DNA from: Deltaproteobacteria bacterium
GTDB lineage: Bacteria > Desulfobacterota > Binatia > HRBIN30 > CADEER01
Length of the DNA stretch: 64,000 bases
Assembly (NCBI GenBank): GCA_029262455.1
Contig: JAJCZJ010000020.1
Location: 124,001-188,000, forward strand
Direction: 5' to 3'
The position numbers and the translations under genes are program-made. Each line of letters begins with the position of its first letter. Within the stretch, counting starts at the first letter, position 1. Under the pieces are notes generated by a model. It saw only the letters and a program-made list of their open reading frames with translations. It made no database searches and was not told the origin of the DNA. Positions 10,549 to 19,838 of this stretch are shown here, in pieces.

Positions 10549-10817
10549 GGGAGGGAGAGGCGCGCCGAGCCTTTCGTGGTCGAGTCGTGCCACAGCTACC
10601 ACCCGCCGGAGTTGTACGCGGCTCGGCGGCGCCTCTCCCTCCCGGTACCCGGCTGCTCCTGCGCACAACTTCGTGATGTCGTACCGAGCACAGGCTGTTC
10701 GCGGCTCGGCGGCGCCTCTCCCTCCCGGTACCCGGCCCTGCGCACCACTTCGTGATGTCGTACCAAGCACAGACTGTTCGCGGCTCGGCGGCGCCTCTCC
10801 CTCCCGGCACCCTTACG
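10549..10817. repeat. intergenic direct repeats (about 80 bp) with a flanking inverted copy
   Basis: Three direct copies begin at 10617, 10700 and 10779. The first two units are 83 and 79 bases long, differing by a 4-base deletion (CTGC/TGCT region); the third is cut after about 39 bases. Each begins with CGCGGCTCGGCGGCGCC followed by TCTCCCTCCCGG. A partial inverted copy, GGGAGGGAGAGGCGCGCCGA, lies at 10549-10568. The block sits immediately 3' of the GT2-GT32 gene. It resembles a REP/MITE-like non-autonomous element that has been duplicated; its distribution elsewhere cannot be seen here. Confidence 0.7.
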
Positions 10818-10839: not shown

Positions 10840-12339
10840 TCAACGACGAGCTGCGACAGCGAGTCGGTTGCGGTACAGCCACGCCAGTAGGCTGCCGCCC
10901 GACAGATAGTCGTCGTCGAGGTTGGCCAATGTTGCGTCGTCCGTCGTACCGTCTCGGAGGCGAACCATATAGGCGGCGCCGAGCACTTCGTCGTAGAGCT
11001 GGCGCAAGTGCGCCTCGTCAGCGCAACGAAACAGCAAACCGGGATCGTCGCGGGTGGGGTCGAAGGTCGTTGCGGGCTCCAGCCATAGCTGCCCGCTCGA
11101 TGTTGCGGTATGCATCTTCTCCAGCCAATCGACACCCAAATCCGATCCAAGGATGTCGCGCAGCATTTCGGCTCGTGGCGCGGCTAGCATGCCGCCGACG
11201 TCGATGCCGCCGCCGTCCTCAGTGGAGTGTGGCTCGGTCATCACACACGGGTGGGCGCGAAGTGGATCAACCGACTGAAGCAGCAGAACGTTGCCATCGA
11301 GATAAATTCCGCCGTATTCTAGAAGGATCTCGAAAGGAAGATGTTCCTTTCGATCCTCGTCGCGACTACGCTCAATCTCGACAAGGCGCACGAGCTCGGC
11401 AGCTTCATTCCAGTAGCGGTTGCCGGTCGGCGCTTGCGTGTAGTGGAGGAGAATTTCCTGCGGGCGCTGAACCGCCTGGGCGGCGACAATGGCCAGTAGG
11501 TTTACAGCGGAAAATGCCTCGTCCCCTGTGTACAAAAAGTGAACCAGGTTGGGCACCGATAGATCGCGATCTCGCGGCGCGTTGCGGTCGCGTTCCTGCC
11601 AGCGCCCTTGCTGATTGAGCGCGTAGGCGGACACGTCACCGATGTGGCTGATGCCCAGATCGGCGCAGGCAACGGAGGCGCCGGCCTGCTGCGCGCGCAC
11701 CGCGAAATCGTATTCGAAGAGACTCGGTGCAATGCGCTCGTCGAAACGGCCGACGTGTCGCTTGAAATAGCCGACGTCGAAGAGTGAGGGGTTCAAGCTG
11801 AACCCAGGCCACCACCAACCATCTTGATCGACGGCACGCAACGGCGGCGGGTAGACGGTATCGTAACGTTGATTCTCGAGAGGTTTGACGGGATGCGACG
11901 GGTTGTAGCGGTAGCGCCCGACCGCGGCTCCTTCGATGGTTGCCGCGGCCGTAGTACAGCCCGGGCGCGAGGTGAAGAGAATCTGCTGGAACTCGCCGCT
12001 CTGCATCAGTGGCAAAAAACTCGCGAGGGAGAAATCTCTCGAGAACAGCCAGTCGTCTTCAATATGAAAGACGAAGTCACTGTCGACGACATCGAAGAGC
12101 AGGTTCAGGCTACGCGCGTGCCCGGCCTGGGCCGGTGTCTTCCAGATGAACTCGAAAAAGGGATACTCGTGTTCCATGCAGGCTCGGTCACTGGCGACGG
12201 AGTTGTCGTCCACCAAGATCCAACGCTGGATCCTGCTGTGATCCAGGCAATACCGCAGCACGCTGTCCATCGTCCTGCGCAACAGGTCGAGACGCCGGCA
12301 TGTCGTGATGGTGAACGTCAGTGGTAGTCGGTCGTTCAT
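10840..12339 (-). CDS. bifunctional glycosyltransferase: GT2-like domain plus GT32/DXD-type domain
   Basis: A 499-residue protein. Residues 1 to about 255 form a GT2-like domain (TFTITTCRRLDLLRRTMDSV, VDDNS, HIEDDW as the acidic metal motif). Residues from about 270 to the end resemble GT32/capsular DXD transferases: VPNLVHFLYTGDEA, and LLEYGGIYLDGNVLLL where the canonical DxD is changed to DGN. The N-terminal domain is clearly paralogous to the middle domain of the 958-aa neighbour (both share PFFEFI.KTP). It is the last gene of a four-gene minus-strand operon, 24 bases after its neighbour. The role in transferring sugars to a surface protein is inferred from context. The altered DxD may make the second domain weak or inactive. 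Confidence 0.8.
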   Translation of the reverse strand: MNDRLPLTFTITTCRRLDLLRRTMDSVLRYCLDHSRIQRWILVDDNSVASDRACMEHEYPFFEFIWKTPAQAGHARSLNLLFDVVDSDFVFHIEDDWLFSRDFSLASFLPLMQSGEFQQILFTSRPGCTTAAATIEGAAVGRYRYNPSHPVKPLENQRYDTVYPPPLRAVDQDGWWWPGFSLNPSLFDVGYFKRHVGRFDERIAPSLFEYDFAVRAQQAGASVACADLGISHIGDVSAYALNQQGRWQERDRNAPRDRDLSVPNLVHFLYTGDEAFSAVNLLAIVAAQAVQRPQEILLHYTQAPTGNRYWNEAAELVRLVEIERSRDEDRKEHLPFEILLEYGGIYLDGNVLLLQSVDPLRAHPCVMTEPHSTEDGGGIDVGGMLAAPRAEMLRDILGSDLGVDWLEKMHTATSSGQLWLEPATTFDPTRDDPGLLFRCADEAHLRQLYDEVLGAAYMVRLRDGTTDDATLANLDDDYLSGGSLLAWLYRNRLAVAARR

Positions 12340-12363
12340 TGGCCCTATCGCGAGCGTCCTCGC

Positions 12364-15240
12364 TCAGCCAAGAGGCTGATAGTCGTACTGGATGTCGGTG
12401 TCGCTTTCACCGTCGGTGCGCGCGATCTCAGCGTAAGCGATGGGAGGATCGGACTCGTAAATATTCAACGCCTGGCTGTGTGTCTGCAAGTACGTGTCGA
12501 CCGGGTCTTGCATTCCATCAGTCTCGGCGATGCGGAGCAAACGAGCCGCGCCGCGAGGCGAAACCAGATAGCCCGCCGTGCCGCCGATCCAACTGTGCCA
12601 ATCAACAGCGCGCAACTCAGGATGCCGGTGGACCACGGGACGCTGCGGTTGCCAAAGATCTGCCTGCGACAAGCGCGCCAGGAGCAGCACGTGCCACTCC
12701 GGATCGTAGTCTTCGAGATCACGCTGCAGGCAGGCGAGCTTAAAACGAAATCCATCGACCAGCTCGACGTCATCTTCCAACACCATTGTCATCTGCCTGG
12801 CCGAGCGCCACACTTCGATGTGACTGAGAGCGCAGGCGATGACGGTTCGGCGGGAGCCGAACCGATTGCCGCGGAAGAGATGATCGATGCGCGACGAAAG
12901 CTCCAGCTGACGGCCGTCGATGGCCGGAAAGCGCCGCCAAAAGTTGAGCTTGGCAGCGTCGGCACGCTCCCTGAAAGCAGCAAGTCGATCGGTGCGCCGG
13001 TCGAGATTGATCACTACGGTATCGGGTGGCGGTAGCCTGTCGAGAGTGAAACCGAGGTTGGCCTCGATTCGCTCGCGTTCTTCGGGCGGCAGCTCTCGCC
13101 GCAGCAGGAGCTCGCGGTAGGCTTCAAAGCTCTCGCCGAACTCACCCACTTCGTAGGCAACCCGCGACAGCTCGTCGAGCGCGCGCCAGGAAAACGGATC
13201 GTCGCTCGATGCGGAATTAAGCGGTCGTTGGTAAGCCACTGAGCGCAACAGCTGGTACTTGCGCGAAGGCAGAATGGCGGCATGCGCCTGACGCCGGATC
13301 TCATGCGCCGGCGTGCGCACCTCGCCGAACTGAGGCATCTCGTTCAGCGCGTAGGCATTCGGCGTGGATGAGTCGTGACGTTCCCTGACAAGTCGGCCGG
13401 TATGCAGGCAACAGATCGTATCGAGAAAAGCGGAGCGCCAGCCGGCATCGGTGTAGCGGCGCGCCATCTCGAGCTCGAAGTGCTCGGCACTCTCGTCGAA
13501 GCGGCCGAGGGACTTGACCGCTTCCGTGCGCAGGAGCGACGGGCGCAGCGAGTAGTGCGGCCATAAGATGTTCGATCGGCAGCCGGGGTGTTGTTGCCAG
13601 AACGCGTGCTCTTGCGCAGATCCCGGAACCAGAAACAGCTGTCGAACAAAACGCAGACCGCTCTCGGTGCGGGCCAACTCGCCACCGACGAGGGCGCGGT
13701 CCTGCATATCTTCGGCGTAGTGGCGATTGAACAGCACCTGCCCGAGTTGCGGTTCTTCGGCGAGGATCTCTATCGCCTGGCCAATCAGCGGCAATCGATC
13801 GACGAAGTTCCAATCGTCCTCGAGATGCAGCCAAAAAGGAGTCGTCACGGTGTCGAGCAGGAGGTTCATGCTGAGCGCGTGCCCTCGTTGCTCGGGGGTC
13901 TTGAAGATAAACTCGAAGAACGGAAACCGGCGTTGCATCTCACGCCGATCCTCGTGACTCGAATTGTCGTCGACGCAGACCCAGCGATCGACACGCTCGA
14001 CGTCAGTACAGTTGGCGAGGAGAGAGTCGACGGTCTTGATGAACAGATCCAGTCGTTTGCACGATGTAATGGTCAGCGTCACCGCCGGCGAATCCGCCGG
14101 CTGCTTAGCGCACAGCCGGTGCACCCGAACGCCGTCGCGCACGACCGGCTGCGCGGCAATAGCGTCGACCGCAAAGCCGCGGTTGGTTTCAATGCGCGCG
14201 CGCTCGGCATCGGAGAGGCAATCGCCGGCGAGGATCTGTGTATTCAGCTCGAGAGCCTCTCGATGCTTGCCAAGGTAGTAGGCGGCAAGCGCCTGCTCGT
14301 CGCGCGCCCGGTATTGATACACGTCGGCTTGGATGAACAGCGAATCTTGCGCCGGGTATGGAATCGCCGCCGCGCGCTCGGCGTTGCGATAGGCGGCGGC
14401 GTAGTCCCCCCTCCCCCGCTCCCGGCTGGCCAAGTAGACCAGCGGCTCGGCGCGGTCGGGATGAACCTCCGCGGTTTCGAGGTACGCATTGCGGACTTCT
14501 TGCCACGGCGCACCGAGGCGATCGAGGCACTGAGCAACGCGATAGCGCGAATAAAAGAGCTCTTGGTCCCAACCGCCCATGTCGATGCGGTCGCGGTAGC
14601 AGCGCCGTGCGTTGTCGAGCAGCCCCGCATCGAAGTAACTCTGAGCCAGATAGAAGGCATAGCGAGTACTGTCGGGCTCCCCGCGCAGCGCCGCTTCGAG
14701 CGTCTGGGCGTCACGCAGATATTTGTCGGATCGCTGGCTACGGCCGCCGAGTCGTCGCGAGACGACGTGGTAATCGCCGCCGATGGAGCCCGTAACCGTC
14801 TCGCCTTCACACGCAGGGTACTCGTGTAGCACGCCTCGGTAACGCCAAGGCTTGCTGCGGGCGAAGAGCTGCAGCCTCCAGTACTCGAAGCTGGGGCCGT
14901 AACGCATGCGGTAAGCGTCGGCTTTGAGGTTCGCAATGTCCGGTGTGCCGACGACGATATCATCGGCATCGATGACCCAGAAATAGTCAGAGATCGAGTG
15001 ATGACGCGCCAACTCGAGAGCTTCGCTGCGGTTGTGGCCGAAGTCTTTCCAAGGACGGCGTAGCGTCGTGCCGGGAATCTCGGCACGACGCATGAAGTCG
15101 TCGACCACCTCGACAGTCGCGTCCGTCGAGCCGGTATCGACAATGACGAAATCGTCGATGTACTCGCACACAGACTCGAGAGTCTGGCGGATGATATGAG
15201 CCTCGTCCTTGACGATCATATTGAGGCAGATCGTCGTCAT
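12364..15240 (-). CDS. multidomain glycosyltransferase: GT2 - TPR - GT2-like - TPR - GT25
   Basis: A 958-residue protein. Domain 1 (about 1-160) is a GT2 of the SunS/WaaE-like type: CLNMIVKDEAHIIRQTLES, VDTGSTDATVEVV and the acidic motif IDADDIV. TPR-like helices occupy about 165-340. Domain 3 (about 375-600) is a second GT2-like unit (TITSCKRLDLFIKTVDSL, HLEDDWNF) paralogous to the next gene's N-terminus. More TPR-like helices follow, and about 715-945 is a GT25/LPS11-like domain: VVINLDRRTDRLAAF, FPAIDG, ALSHIEVWRS and VLEDDVEL. GT25 includes the collagen galactosyltransferases of animals, and a collagen-like protein is encoded two genes upstream in the same operon. TPR-linked GTs usually glycosylate proteins. 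Spacing to its operon neighbours is 27 and 24 bases. Target and sugars are inference. Confidence 0.85.
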   Translation of the reverse strand: MTTICLNMIVKDEAHIIRQTLESVCEYIDDFVIVDTGSTDATVEVVDDFMRRAEIPGTTLRRPWKDFGHNRSEALELARHHSISDYFWVIDADDIVVGTPDIANLKADAYRMRYGPSFEYWRLQLFARSKPWRYRGVLHEYPACEGETVTGSIGGDYHVVSRRLGGRSQRSDKYLRDAQTLEAALRGEPDSTRYAFYLAQSYFDAGLLDNARRCYRDRIDMGGWDQELFYSRYRVAQCLDRLGAPWQEVRNAYLETAEVHPDRAEPLVYLASRERGRGDYAAAYRNAERAAAIPYPAQDSLFIQADVYQYRARDEQALAAYYLGKHREALELNTQILAGDCLSDAERARIETNRGFAVDAIAAQPVVRDGVRVHRLCAKQPADSPAVTLTITSCKRLDLFIKTVDSLLANCTDVERVDRWVCVDDNSSHEDRREMQRRFPFFEFIFKTPEQRGHALSMNLLLDTVTTPFWLHLEDDWNFVDRLPLIGQAIEILAEEPQLGQVLFNRHYAEDMQDRALVGGELARTESGLRFVRQLFLVPGSAQEHAFWQQHPGCRSNILWPHYSLRPSLLRTEAVKSLGRFDESAEHFELEMARRYTDAGWRSAFLDTICCLHTGRLVRERHDSSTPNAYALNEMPQFGEVRTPAHEIRRQAHAAILPSRKYQLLRSVAYQRPLNSASSDDPFSWRALDELSRVAYEVGEFGESFEAYRELLLRRELPPEERERIEANLGFTLDRLPPPDTVVINLDRRTDRLAAFRERADAAKLNFWRRFPAIDGRQLELSSRIDHLFRGNRFGSRRTVIACALSHIEVWRSARQMTMVLEDDVELVDGFRFKLACLQRDLEDYDPEWHVLLLARLSQADLWQPQRPVVHRHPELRAVDWHSWIGGTAGYLVSPRGAARLLRIAETDGMQDPVDTYLQTHSQALNIYESDPPIAYAEIARTDGESDTDIQYDYQPLG

Positions 15241-15267
15241 GGGAGACGGCTCGAAACGGAGGCTGGG

Positions 15268-16182
15268 CTAGACGCTGCTCTTACGGCGGCGCACCATCGC
15301 CAGCGCAGCCACGGACAAGAGAGCGAAGAAGCCCGCAATCAAACCGCTGCGGCCGATGGCCGGAGCCGGCGTCGGAATCGTCGGTCGCCCAGGACCGCCC
15401 TGGTCGACGATCAACCCGTCGACTCCGGTGTCGTCACCTAAGACGCCGTCAACGAGCATGAAAGAGGCCGTAGCGACTTGCGGATCCGAGCCAACTGCTT
15501 CGACGCCGAAAGTGACTCCCGGTAGCTCATAGAATTCGCTGGGCGGGACACCCGGTGGATTGGGACCGTACTTCTCGTAGACAAATGGCGGCGAAGTGAT
15601 TCCGTTGCTCGAGTGGTAGTAGACCTTGATGAACACCGGCGAGCAGTGAGCGACGAACTCCAGTAGGCCGAACGGGAAATCGATGTCCGGCGATTCCTCG
15701 GGAAGCTCAGATTCGCTGAGTGTGCGTACACCGGTGAGCTGGCAGGGCAAGGTACATGCAGCGTCCTCGCAGGCCTCGATCGTGAGCGGGCCCTGGGTCC
15801 CGGTGGTGGTACCGACATTGCCTTGCGTGGCGTCGAGTTCGCCGTCGTCGTTGCCATCGCCACCGTTCGGGCCGCTCGATTCTTCCGAGTTGGGAATCAT
15901 GTCGCCATCGTCGTCATCGGCCGGGAGACCGGCGGGGACGGCGAACGTGCAACCGGCGTGCAATACGTAAGAAGAACTCGTCAGCTTGCCGGAAATCTCG
16001 GATTCTGTACCGAGGCACAATCGCAGGGAGTAGCTCGCCGACGTCGCCTTGCCGGAAGCAGAGTTGAACGACGAGCCGAGCAGGCGATAACTGGCACTCG
16101 ACGGCGCTTGACCGAGGACAACGGCAGGGGCAACGAGTGAGACACCCAGCCAAAGTACTACGCTATACTTGAAAAGCTTCAC
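15268..16182 (-). CDS. secreted protein with choice-of-anchor-U-like domain and C-terminal sorting signal
   Basis: A 304-residue protein starting at GTG. It has an N-terminal signal peptide (LFKYSVVLWLGVSLVAPAVV...). Acidic DDDDGDMIPNSEE and DGNDDGELDATQGNV repeats (about 100-145, calcium-binding in character) introduce a domain like the choice-of-anchor-U family. The C-terminus reads IPTPAPAIGRSGL, a hydrophobic helix and RRRK, the tripartite layout of IPTL/MYXO-CTERM type sorting signals. It is therefore exported and probably processed by a dedicated sortase-like peptidase not present in this window. Start is 13 bases downstream of the collagen-like gene, so the two are co-transcribed. It could be an anchor or scaffold for the collagen-like partner; that is inference. 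Confidence 0.75.
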   Translation of the reverse strand: MKLFKYSVVLWLGVSLVAPAVVLGQAPSSASYRLLGSSFNSASGKATSASYSLRLCLGTESEISGKLTSSSYVLHAGCTFAVPAGLPADDDDGDMIPNSEESSGPNGGDGNDDGELDATQGNVGTTTGTQGPLTIEACEDAACTLPCQLTGVRTLSESELPEESPDIDFPFGLLEFVAHCSPVFIKVYYHSSNGITSPPFVYEKYGPNPPGVPPSEFYELPGVTFGVEAVGSDPQVATASFMLVDGVLGDDTGVDGLIVDQGGPGRPTIPTPAPAIGRSGLIAGFFALLSVAALAMVRRRKSSV

Positions 16183-16195
16183 GTCGCCCTCGAAC

Positions 16196-17011
16196 CTAGA
16201 TCGTAGACCCCGAATCGCCGGTCGGGCCGGTCGGACCGGTCGGACCTACCGGCCCCTGTGAGCCGGTGACGCCCTGAATACCCGTGTCTCCGATCGGGCC
16301 AGTCGGACCCTGAATACCCGTGTTTCCGCTCGGGCCGGTCGGACCCTGAATACCCGTGTCTCCGCTCGGGCCGGTCGGACCCTGAATACCCGTGTTTCCG
16401 CTCGGGCCGGTCGGACCCTGAATACCCGTGTCACCCGACGGGCCACTCGGACCGGTTGGCCCGGTGCCGGAAGCACCGGTCGGACCGCTCGGTCCCTGCG
16501 GACCGGTATCGCCGCTTGGACCACTCGGCCCAGTAGCGCCGGTCGAACCCGTACCTCCAGTTGGACCCGTCGGACCCGACTCGACCGTCAACGAGTAAGC
16601 CGAGCTGGTAATCCTCTTGTTGGGCGACAAGGTCTCGCCACTGATCGTAACTTCGAGAAAACGCTCGGGATCACCTGAGCCATCGAGAGGCGGGCCGGTG
16701 AACAGTCCCGCCGGAAACGAGGTATTGCTGCCCAGGTCGATACTGAAGAACCCCTGTTCGACGATCACCGCTGGGTGCGACTCGCTCCAAGCGTTGGGAA
16801 CCGGATTGCCAAGGCCGTCGACGATGCGGAAGGACATCGGCACGGTGTCGTCCGCGGGAACACCGCTCGGATCGGTCAGCCGGCCCTGGAAGTTGATGAG
16901 GTTCGGAACCTCAGCAGCCTGGACTCTGAGCGCCGAGAACAATCTCGGCGCTATCACCGCGACTGCAACGGCGTCGCAAATGAACTTTCGGCGCGTAACG
17001 TCTTTTGCCAT
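16196..17011 (-). CDS. secreted collagen-like protein
   Basis: A 271-residue protein. The N-terminus [19 protein letters not shown] has a twin-arginine-like RRKF followed by a hydrophobic stretch ending in ALRVQAA, so export, possibly by Tat, is likely. Residues about 35-145 form a globular domain ([20 protein letters not shown], ending [13 protein letters not shown]), a type often seen before tail repeats in environmental bacteria. From about 150 to the C-terminus there are uninterrupted Gly-X-Y triplets rich in GPTGPSG and [12 protein letters not shown], which would form a triple helix. GPT triplets are the O-glycosylated units in the Bacillus BclA protein. The ATG at 17011 follows GGAG; an open frame extends to 17353 without support. 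First gene of the glycosylation operon. Confidence 0.9.
16273..16452. repeat. 36-bp tandem repeat inside the collagen-like gene
   Basis: Exact-length 36-base units start at 16273, 16309, 16345, 16381 and 16417 (last partial). Each encodes 12 residues of [11 protein letters not shown](N/D) type. Units differ by very few bases, alternating TCTCC and TTTCC, which indicates recent expansion and makes copy-number variation between strains likely. Confidence 0.9.
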
Positions 17012-17154
17012 TGGTCTCCGGCCTCCCTCGCGTTTCTCAAGACAGCCGGTGAACTTTGGTGAATTTGGACACAGACCGCCGCCGGAGTATAAGGTTGCAA
17101 GACGACAAGGGCAACCCCAAAAAGTGCTTTCCAAGAGAAGCGCCCCACTGAAGC

Positions 17155-17169
17155 CGGCACTCGCATTGC
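17155..17169 (+). promoter_or_regulatory. weak sigma-54-like -24/-12 site before the GT32 gene
   Basis: CGGCACT-CGCA-TTGC matches 9 of 11 positions of TGGCACG-N4-TTGC. Transcription would begin near 17181, which fits the GTG start at 17221 but not the ATG at 17173. A match this good is expected several times by chance in 64 kb, so confidence is low. Confidence 0.25.
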
Positions 17170-17172
17170 GGC

Positions 17173-18846
17173 ATGCCGCAGCGACTGGTGGCGCGTAGCC
17201 TGAGAACGAATGTTGTCGCTGTGATCCCCAAGATTCTGCATCAAATCTGGATCGGGCCGCACCCTCCGCCGCGCGCGTTGATGCAGTCTTGGATCGACCA
17301 TCACCCGGGATGGCAGTACAGACTTTGGACCGAACGCGACCTAAGCGAGCCACTGCAAAATCAGCGCGCCTTCGACGCTTTGTCTGCGTTCTCCAGCAAG
17401 GCCAACGTGTGGCGCTACGAGATCATCGAACGCTACGGCGGCGTGTACGCCGATGCGGATTTCCTTTGCCTTCGTCGGCTCGACGAAAACATGCTTCACT
17501 CCGCTTTCTTCACTGCCTATGAAAGCGAAAGTGCGGTGAGCGGACAGATCGCAAACGGTCTGTTCGGAGCCATACCGCACCACCCGGTCTCGCGACGTCT
17601 GGTCGAGAGAATCCACCGTCTAGCAGGCACAGAGCTGAGCTGGCGGACCGGATTCGACTCGACCGGCCCGCCGTTCTTCAGCGAGGTCATCCGAGAGATC
17701 CCGCAGGGAGTGGTGGTCCACCCGAGTTGGCTATTCTATCCGGACCATTTCGGCCACGACGCAACCTACGAGCGGATGTGGGCTAGCGAAGGGGAACCGT
17801 ACGCGCGCCACGACTGGTTTTTTGAGTCGCCGACTGTCTGCCTGATGATGTTTGCCGGCGCCGACCCCGATTTGCTTCGGATCAGTCTAGCCAGCGTCCG
17901 CACCCACATCAGTTGCTACGTCGTCGCTGTCAATCACCCGGATCGCTGCAGCGCCGAGCAGGTGGCACGCATGCTGCGTGGCGTCCCGGGGACCATACTC
18001 GAAGGGCACGAGGCCGACAGTGCGGAAGAGTTGGTTGCGGCCGCTCGCGGCATGGCGGATTTCACGCTGCTGCTCGAAACCGGCGAGCTGGCGGTGGGGT
18101 TCTCCCGCCTAAAACTCACTCCCGCCGCCGACGGTTATAGCGCCAACAGACAAGACGTGACGGGCGACGAAGTCACGCTGCGACTCTGCAAAGATCCCGA
18201 AGAAATCTACTTTAGAAAAGGTCAATCAAGTGGCGCTGCCGGCAGCGATCGCTCGGGGCGTTCGATTCTCGAAGACTGCGTCTTCACTCGCTTCGAGAGT
18301 CCACCGCATGGGGCCGATTACGGGCAAATCGACCGATCGCTGACGTTGGCCGATGCCCTGCAAGGCATCGGTGCCTACCGCCATGCGACGTCGCTCTGCG
18401 CAGATCTCCACGATTTCGAACTCGCGCCCAAGCAGCGTTGGCAAATGCAATGCCGTAAAGGAGCCTGCGATCTTGCCATGGGAGCAGCGATCGAGGTGGT
18501 CGAGCCACAGTTGCTGGCGGCGTTTCGCCTACAGCCGCAGCGACCCGAGCCGCTGTTGACACTCGGCACACACTATTACGCCAGGGGAGACCATACCAAC
18601 GCAACCCGCTACTTCGAACATGTCGCCGCCCTGCCCGAACCCAGGACACCACTGCGGGGCGTAGAGAGGCCGCGCCAGCAGGCGCTCGAGTTCTTATCTG
18701 TTTCGGCCTACTACGCCGGCCGCTACGACCTCGGATTTCAAGCCGGGATGGAAGCTCTGCGAGGCCAGCCGACTGTGCTTCCGCACGAACGGGTTCGCAC
18801 GAACCTCGAGTACTATGCCGCCAAGGTCGGTCGCCAGCGATCGTGA
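17173..18846 (+). CDS. GT32-family glycosyltransferase with C-terminal TPR-like region
   Basis: A 557-residue protein. The N-terminus [16 protein letters not shown] and the motif [20 protein letters not shown] (DxD within ADAD) are classic GT32 (Och1-type, mannosyl/glycosyltransferase) features. A middle region (about 235-380) has no clear family, and residues from about 395 to the end form TPR-like helices ([21 protein letters not shown]). It is divergent from the collagen-like operon across a 160-base intergenic region and most likely acts in the same glycosylation pathway. The start is uncertain: GT32 proteins usually begin at IPK, and the in-frame GTG at 17221 would give [10 protein letters not shown]; neither start has a good ribosome site. 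Confidence 0.8.
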
Positions 18847-18995: not shown

Positions 18996-19838
18996 ATGAA
19001 AATCATTCGCCAAGGCGGCCACTTCGGAGCCCGGATCGAAGGTATCGACTTCAGTGTTCCTCTCAGTACACAGGCCCTCGACGACATCACCGGTGCTCTC
19101 TACGAGTATCAGGTAATCTCCATGGCGGCGCCGGAGTTGAGCTACGAAGAGCATCTGCGCATCGCACTGCAGTTCGGCACTCCGGAGGCGCACGCCACCG
19201 ACCAATTCCACCGCGACGAGAGTTGCCCCTATCGAACCGTGATCGATTCCGAAAAGGGCGACCGAGCCGACTCCTGGCACGCCGATGAAACATTCCTCGA
19301 GCACCCCCCCTTGGTCAATCTGCTGCACAGCAGAATCCTTCCCGAACACGGCGGCGATACGGCCTTCATCAGCATGGCGGCCGCCTATGACGGCCTTTCC
19401 GAGAAGTTCAAGACTCTGATCGACGAGCTCACGGCAATCCACGATTACGGCCATCTCTACGAGCTGGGCTGGCGCAGTGGCATCCCGCTCGGACCGCTGG
19501 TTGGCGACGCCCTGGTCAAGGGATTGATCCACTCTCACCCCATCGTGCGGAAGCATCCAGTGACCGGCCGCCGGTGGCTCACGGTCAACTCGACGTACAC
19601 GCGCTTCGTCGAGGGGTTGACGCCACTGGAAGGCCAGATGGTGCTCGACCTGCTGTTGCGTCACATGCAGAAACCCGAGTTTGGTTTCCGGCATCATTGG
19701 CAGCTAGGGGACCTGCTCATCTGGGATCAGCAAGCCGTGCAGCACTACGCAGTCGGCGATTTCGAAGGACGTCGCCTGGTCCATCGCATCTCCGCGCTGG
19801 CCACGGACGAAACGTATACGGGCATCAACACCGCCTGA
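18996..19838 (+). CDS. TauD/TfdA-family Fe(II)/2-oxoglutarate dioxygenase
   Basis: A 280-residue dioxygenase. The metal triad is H95 and D97 (WHADETF) and H250 (AVQHYAVGDF), with the 2-oxoglutarate-binding Arg at R264 (RRLVHRI). The family hydroxylates substrates such as taurine, 2,4-D or alkylsulfates; substrate cannot be assigned. Length is typical. It follows the GT32 gene by 150 bases and precedes a ppc remnant. Confidence 0.85.
   Translation: MKIIRQGGHFGARIEGIDFSVPLSTQALDDITGALYEYQVISMAAPELSYEEHLRIALQFGTPEAHATDQFHRDESCPYRTVIDSEKGDRADSWHADETFLEHPPLVNLLHSRILPEHGGDTAFISMAAAYDGLSEKFKTLIDELTAIHDYGHLYELGWRSGIPLGPLVGDALVKGLIHSHPIVRKHPVTGRRWLTVNSTYTRFVEGLTPLEGQMVLDLLLRHMQKPEFGFRHHWQLGDLLIWDQQAVQHYAVGDFEGRRLVHRISALATDETYTGINTA

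Follow-up and report, generated by a model that had tools for sequence, protein, structure and literature searches.

A candidate collagen glycosylation operon with a fused glycosyltransferase in a Binatia genome

The genes and their products

The subject of this analysis is a cluster of five genes in a 64,000-nucleotide stretch of DNA, in the following termed the window, that corresponds to positions 124,001 to 188,000 of contig JAJCZJ010000020.1 in assembly GCA_029262455.1 of a bacterium from the Binatia (Desulfobacterota). The cluster encodes a collagen-like protein, a companion protein and three proteins with glycosyltransferase (GT) domains, among them a 958-aa enzyme in which GT modules and tetratricopeptide repeats (TPR) are fused, and it is discussed here as a candidate system for glycosylation of the collagen-like protein. 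The genes, with window coordinates and the basis of each assignment, are as follows.

16196..17011, minus strand: collagen-like protein, 271 aa, proposed acceptor (open reading frame, start, Pfam Collagen)
15268..16182, minus strand: companion protein, 304 aa, proposed anchor or partner (sub-threshold NF041766 match, domain common to loci L014 and L015)
12364..15240, minus strand: fused glycosyltransferase, 958 aa, GT2-TPR-GT2-TPR-GT25 (Pfam, predicted model, motifs, homologues)
10840..12339, minus strand: 499-aa protein with GT2-type domain and weak GT32-like region (Pfam, homology, motif reading)
17173..18846, plus strand: GT32 protein, 557 aa, with DXD motif and TPR-like C-terminus (Pfam, motif)

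The first four genes form a minus-strand run with intergenic gaps of 13, 27 and 24 bp, and the GT32 gene is divergent. All five reading frames are open, and the original prediction, made from the DNA letters alone, had placed both genes and gaps correctly.

That prediction had also described the first product as an exported collagen-like protein. Its collagen nature is borne out by Pfam (PF01391, 61.6 bits against a curated cut-off of 27.2), and its N-terminus reads by eye as a twin-arginine signal, but the listed open reading frame (ORF; 16196-17353) is overlong. The likelier start is the ATG at 17011, which yields 271 aa and leaves 161 bp before the divergent GT32 gene. The twin-arginine-type start is followed by a β domain of about 110 aa and then by the G-X-Y repeats. 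A predicted model of the protein (predicted local distance difference test, pLDDT, 80.5) contains strands only, and no confident match was obtained when structures were searched with the N-terminal domain (best E 4.9e-3). The same domain is 50-52% identical to those of the collagens at L014, L015 and L022, three of the loci with relatives of the fused enzyme that are treated below. Among the 41 G-X-Y triplets, Y is Thr in 21 and Ser in 10 (31/41), and Lys occurs in neither X nor Y. A second collagen-like ORF of the same genome (L125, G000:C117:87331-87495; 929 aa, Thr fraction in Y 0.09) lies away from the only GT2-TPR gene found in that genome.

The companion protein shares a domain of about 60 aa with collagen-adjacent genes of the Burkholderiales loci L014 and L015, and its match to the choice-of-anchor-U family (NF041766) stays below threshold with 26.7 bits against 32. 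A C-terminal sorting signal had been claimed for it; no sorting-signal family of NCBIfam or Pfam, IPTL and PEP-CTERM types included, was matched at E 0.1, and what can be seen by eye is a hydrophobic segment followed by RRRK. Perhaps the protein serves as anchor or partner of the collagen.

For the 958-aa protein, the layout GT2-TPR-GT2-TPR-GT25 had been proposed, of which Pfam supports the first GT2 module (approximately residues 1-165, DADD at 91; 59.1 bits, above the curated cut-off) and the GT25 module (residues 740-935, EDD at 822, DTDIQ at 947; PF01755, 51.3 bits against a cut-off of 24). The second GT2-type domain (residues 387-613, EDD at 474) is not reported by Pfam, yet forms a separate α/β block in the predicted model, which displays three such blocks in total (pLDDT 78.0, predicted template modelling score 0.58, 11 rows). 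In between lie a TPR block (residues 173-363) and a short helical/TPR block (residues 682-733). Owing to the low template modelling score, the arrangement of the domains is not fixed by the model. Its best matches in the PDB are COLGALT1, ThuS/SunS and R655; for the GT2-TPR unit, the closest solved relatives apart from TPR proteins are GmaR and SunS.

The two remaining enzymes had been described as GT2-GT32 and GT32-TPR proteins, and this holds fully for the second of them, the divergent 557-aa protein (Pfam GT32, 50.1 bits, above the curated cut-off; YGGVYADAD), which is a possible further elongating enzyme. In the 499-aa protein the GT2 domain is clear (28.5 bits, above the curated cut-off) and 39% identical to the second GT2 domain of the fused enzyme, while the GT32 part is weak, falling below the Pfam cut-off (20.4 versus 23) and reading YGGIYLDGN with DGN in place of DXD. 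Plasmid searches returned no matches for the 499-aa protein and solely part-length matches to general glycosyltransferases for the GT32 protein. Just downstream of the 499-aa gene lies a 79-bp tandem repeat (2.5 copies, 92% matches; window 10613-10812).

Collagen genes beside relatives of the fused enzyme

Within its own lineage the fused enzyme is rare: at E 1e-10 the 958-aa protein was detected in one of 39 genomes, namely its own, and in none of the 38 close relatives (0/38), and a profile of the GT2-TPR unit recovered again only the genome of origin when 297 genomes of the phylum were searched at E 1e-40. In genome contigs, 24 loci with relatives were found. The full-length ones are 45-50% identical in their best segments and mostly labelled Actinomycetota/Acidimicrobiia or Burkholderiales, labels among the part-length ones are Acidobacteria, Picosynechococcus, Planctomycetota, Bacteroidetes and Verrucomicrobia, and since most of these records are metagenome-assembled genomes, the labels may be wrong. 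From the rarity of the unit in its own lineage and the scattered labels of its relatives, we infer that enzyme and collagen may have spread horizontally as a unit. The base composition of the window is even and thus gives no compositional sign of recent transfer. Anti-phage defence genes were searched for with PADLOC, which gave no match at E 0.01.

A collagen ORF, defined by filtered G-X-Y runs of at least 8, is present at 14 of the 24 genome loci. Gene order varies among the relatives, yet the pair of glycosyltransferase and collagen persists. Of the five-gene neighbourhood proposed for related genomes, this pair is kept, whereas the GT32-containing genes could not be placed in a conserved unit. 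L014 and L015 retain both the homologous collagen N-terminus and the companion domain, and L022 retains the N-terminus. Elsewhere the non-collagen parts of the partner proteins vary between loci (one annotated as autotransporter, others judged by eye), which leaves the repeats as the shared part. An Arg pair ahead of a hydrophobic stretch was seen by eye in 10 of 10 readable N-termini (window, L011, L014-L018, L021-L023), including that of L016, where the contig stops just after the GT gene and the ORF beginning at its end, a presumed collagen, matches the N-terminus of the L018 collagen. The collagens of L025 and L026, likewise read by eye, lack such a pair; L025 is from Picosynechococcus sp. 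PCC 7117, in which a GT2-TPR-GT2 gene adjoins the collagen gene.

Finding these glycosyltransferases in relatives without a collagen gene nearby, or finding them to act on lipopolysaccharide, had been named as an outcome that would speak against the proposed function, and linkage was compared with that of other GT2 domains. Across seven genomes, all seven GT2-TPR genes lie within 10 kb of a collagen gene as opposed to 1 of 115 other GT2 domains (Fisher p 1.2e-10), and the contrast remains if the genome of the window is left out (6/6 versus 1/83, p 1.2e-8). The single other GT2 domain near a collagen belongs to a gene adjoining such a GT2-TPR gene; for one further domain (G056 C2), the distance to a collagen is 11.6 kb. 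At E 1e-3, 42 of 150 Burkholderiales genomes have collagen matches, 29 of them above the cut-off, a frequency from which chance linkage within 10 kb is generously estimated at less than 1% per locus.

In the same order, the GT2-TPR profile is present in 10 of 399 genomes. Leaving out the seed genome, nine new genomes contribute 10 loci, and those scoring 443-485 bits all have a collagen ORF 0-55 bp away (4/4), in contrast to none of those scoring 167-395 bits (0/6). In the phylum of Picosynechococcus, 291 genomes gave one new match (G631). The ORF immediately upstream of it carries a short collagen tail, which the scan missed and which was seen by eye. L065 (8967-9770), from this phylum, encodes what reads by eye as an RTX-like repeat protein with a short GPT-rich collagen tail right upstream of the GT2-TPR gene.

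Searches of plasmids and phages added 33 and 9 records, respectively, aligned over the N-terminal 360 residues or less. Thirteen loci were hand-picked for diversity from these 42 records, and 10 of the 13 hold a collagen ORF within the stretch. The collagen of Priestia megaterium pBM500 has 220 triplets with Thr in Y of about all (1.00 rounded). On the E. coli plasmid pRT18-1 (L039, 6579-11197), the gene of an autotransporter with a GATGPT-rich collagen stretch precedes the GT2-TPR gene by 107 bp, and the pair is flanked by insertion sequences on both sides; its GT gene has no near match across the E. coli genome collection.

Beyond the GT2-TPR unit, the relatives differ in their further modules. 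A GT10 match is found in L011, L012, L013, L014, L018 and L019, L036 combines Glycos_transf_1 with an FkbM methyltransferase, and L038 has Anp1-like and GT25 modules. That the window protein lacks the GT10 match of these six relatives could be taken as a sign that the locus is what remains of a larger system, decayed or inactive, a reading to which the DGN motif of the 499-aa protein, a collagen that stops directly after its repeats without a C-terminal domain and the absence of the locus from all 38 close relatives would also fit. We regard this as highly improbable: all genes are open, DADD and EDD motifs are present in the three modules of the fused enzyme, L017 likewise has no GT10 match, and nothing follows the repeats in the collagens of L014 and L022 either.

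Acceptor sites, the GT25 module and a proposed pathway

Judged from these neighbourhoods, we consider it probable, with fairly high confidence, that the cluster is dedicated to O-glycosylation of the collagen-like protein encoded in its own operon, including the steps and the export proposed below. The candidate function named in the original prediction is thereby supported: of 29 loci to which the GT2-TPR profile assigns 440 bits or more, 22 have a collagen ORF in the stretch, six are cut by a contig end and one is negative, with the qualification that the 440-bit limit was set after the data had been seen and that the profile (A2) was built from mostly linked rows. Below 440 bits, 10 loci are linked, 11 are not linked and 11 are unresolved, L065 being scored as not linked despite its collagen tail. 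The repeats themselves point in the same direction. In the linked set (28 of 30 listed loci, as L038 and L065 gave no qualifying run), the Thr fraction in Y is at least 0.31 in all collagens with a median of 0.56, compared with a median of 0.17 in sampled Burkholderiales genomes without the glycosyltransferase (n=19, p 0.002).

Several observations weigh against this function. The single negative locus at or above 440 bits, from Verrucomicrobia (L031/L063), has flanks of 5.3 kb and 13.5 kb, collagen is also missing at L041, L042 and L045 as at L031, and no collagen lies in the available flank of the fused proteins at L052 and L020. More distant Burkholderiales relatives of the GT2-TPR unit (L051, L073-L075) adjoin genes that by eye are prepilin-like and PilY1-sized (1241-1537 aa), which hints that the same enzyme family may glycosylate parts of type IV pili. 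On the GT2-TPR tree, linkage is clustered yet patchy and forms no single clean clade, requiring 14 changes where shuffled labels need 19.0 on average (7 of 500 shuffles were as low); the 13-row branch of the window comprises seven linked, six unknown and no unlinked rows. Unlinked collagens of genomes that carry the glycosyltransferase are nearly as rich in Thr (median 0.47, n=32, p 0.03), a weak contrast, and many of these 32 sit at contig ends where linkage cannot be judged. As for export, the strict twin-arginine pattern fits 3 of 28 printed collagen ORFs (window, L014, L015), and three of the loci read by eye, L016, L018 and L021, are closely related to each other.

Viral contigs often carry GT2-TPR genes as well (572 confirmed candidates, of which 80 were kept as L157-L236), and at 32 of 65 distinct loci the stretch also contains a collagen ORF. 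These collagens likewise count against the proposed target, being mostly poor in Thr (median in Y 0.10), with charged repeats in many. Either the viral enzymes use other sites, or the linkage merely reflects a host-recognition region; in one phage group, such a region is reported to hold tail-fibre genes together with many glycosyltransferases (PMC7029224).

The Thr-poor viral collagens, the prepilin-like and PilY1-sized neighbours, a YadA-type protein without G-X-Y repeats beside the GT2-TPR gene of L045, and the conservation of N-terminal domain and companion in L014 and L015 would all fit a reading in which a surface protein is indeed glycosylated, though mainly on its non-collagen part or on the companion rather than on the repeats. 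We give this alternative little credence, as the non-collagen parts vary by locus with the repeats remaining constant, the linked bacterial collagens are rich in Thr, and SgtA, a collagen glycosyltransferase of Clostridioides difficile, acts on repeat peptides (PMC7157674).

A further alternative concerns the GT25 module. Members of the GT25 and GT32 families often occur in polysaccharide loci, Pfam describes PF01755 as a lipopolysaccharide (LPS) family, and a further GT2 gene (G000:C20:122270) is found some 12 kb away from the operon, immediately beyond the window. The enzymes might accordingly build LPS, capsule or exopolysaccharide, with the collagen gene as a mere neighbour in a variable surface-gene region. 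However, the four operon neighbours that were scanned encode GST, CMD, TauD and PQQ-like proteins, and no polysaccharide gene is among them. Of 12 GT25 domains across 21 genomes, 11 lie in fused proteins, 10 within an ORF that also holds a GT2-TPR unit and one in an ORF of this kind that is truncated by a contig end (L023). Moreover, several hosts labelled Acidimicrobiia/Actinomycetota carry the enzyme, and these groups are not known to have LPS. This census, the labels and the rarity of other GT2 domains near collagens (1/115 versus 7/7) led us to reject LPS or capsule synthesis as the main role, and the polysaccharide explanation as a whole appears improbable. The TauD-family gene (18996-19838) was considered as a possible collagen hydroxylase and left aside.

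Nine fused GT25 modules form one branch (support 96/93) that is joined by mimivirus R655 (98/93), and the window module groups apart from stand-alone bacterial GT25s. From 14 stand-alone Burkholderiales GT25s, which are candidate rather than established LPS enzymes, 12 cluster elsewhere and two join COLGALT1 with weaker support (89/75). The motif D[ST]DIQ is found in all nine fused modules and R655 but in none of the 14 stand-alone domains, and is absent from the Mesorhizobium GT2-GT25 protein (L038). Among solved structures, R655 and COLGALT1 are the module's best relatives; as COLGALT1 lies no nearer to the fused modules than to certain stand-alone GT25s, a special kinship with the animal enzyme does not follow.

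For the favoured O-glycosylation of the repeats, a pathway with its acceptor, donors, order of steps, folded export and anchoring can be proposed. In the cytoplasm, the GT2-TPR half of the fused enzyme would recognize the repetitive collagen chain and transfer a first sugar, probably an N-acetylhexosamine by analogy with SgtA, onto Thr or Ser at position Y of the triplets. This sugar could then be extended by two further modules of the enzyme, the second GT2 and the GT25, and the GT2-GT32 and GT32-TPR proteins may add further ones. Animal GT25 enzymes act on collagen hydroxylysine, and such a reaction was rejected here since the triplets contain no Lys; the GT25 module would instead take as acceptor either the sugar linked to Thr/Ser or these residues themselves. 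Once complete and possibly folded, the collagen could leave through the twin-arginine translocation (Tat) pathway, by which, we infer, a glycosylated triple helix may be exported in folded form, and would then be displayed on the cell surface, where the companion protein may hold it.

A bolder generalization is that modular, single-polypeptide "assembly lines" glycosylate Thr-rich bacterial collagens in the cytoplasm, that the glycosylated trimer is then exported folded by Tat, that the unit moves horizontally between phyla and that, among the bacterial proteins found, its GT25 module is the one most closely related to the collagen-associated R655. Such enzymes would consist of a GT2-TPR core with interchangeable second GT2, GT10, GT25, GT4-like, Anp1-like or FkbM-methyltransferase modules. 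We hold this tentatively, with slightly more doubt than trust. If true, GT25-based collagen glycosylation would be no speciality of animals and giant viruses. Descriptions of bacterial collagens often present them as unmodified, and according to a review they in most cases lack glycosylation (PMC8968730); a conserved and widespread pairing of enzyme and collagen would mean that this modification is a trait of bacteria in general, for which the pairing could serve as a genomic marker, and would supply single-enzyme tools for producing glycosylated recombinant collagen. With it, both the shared descent of bacterial and giant-virus collagen GT25s and the passage of a triple helix through the Tat pathway become testable.

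Comparison with known systems

GmaR and SunS, the closest solved relatives of the GT2-TPR unit, resemble it as GT2-type protein or peptide glycosyltransferases. Their targets are flagellin and a bacteriocin peptide, respectively, and neither is a collagen. R655 and COLGALT1 share a homologous GT25 domain with the fused enzyme, and R655 and the fused modules have in addition the DSDIQ-type end and a supported branch in common. The animal enzymes differ in their (hydroxy)lysine acceptor, given that none of the 41 window triplets has Lys in X or Y. R655 itself is described as a putative collagen glycosyltransferase by homology, the assayed protein in that account being R699 (PMC9546862).

Among Bacillus spores, collagen-like proteins are known that are glycosylated (BclA) or expected to be so (F-BclA), with a putative glycosyltransferase gene two genes away (PMC8968730, PMC11952670). 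The likeness to the window system lies in these collagen-like, glycosylated proteins; the difference is that they belong to spore structures of Bacillota and that the relevant passages of these papers describe no fused glycosyltransferase.

The closest parallel in layout is SgtA from C. difficile, a protein of 358 aa with a GT domain (1-260) and TPRs (262-358), whose gene lies immediately upstream of bclA3 (PMC7157674). As reported there, SgtA attaches β-O-N-acetylglucosamine (GlcNAc) to Thr of collagen-repeat peptides in vitro, with UDP-GlcNAc as the sole donor used of three. Like SgtA, the window enzyme combines a GT-A domain and TPRs in this order within about 360 residues (1-363) and adjoins a collagen gene with Thr-bearing repeats, a neighbour found also in relatives with the exceptions L031, L041, L042 and L045; this likeness is one of domain layout and gene position, not of sequence comparison. 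The first sugar step thus has a precedent, and by analogy SgtA offers the strongest support for it. In contrast, SgtA is a single-step enzyme with a spore-surface target, whereas the window unit shares its polypeptide with a second GT2 and a GT25 module, is accompanied by two more GT genes and a twin-arginine collagen, and comes from an unrelated group. The original statement that no described system has this composition was too strong in view of this one-enzyme precedent; no report of a fused glycosyltransferase paired with a collagen was found in the open-access literature (most subscription journals being outside its scope). Taken together, the system looks like a fused, apparently horizontally spread variant of known collagen glycosylation.

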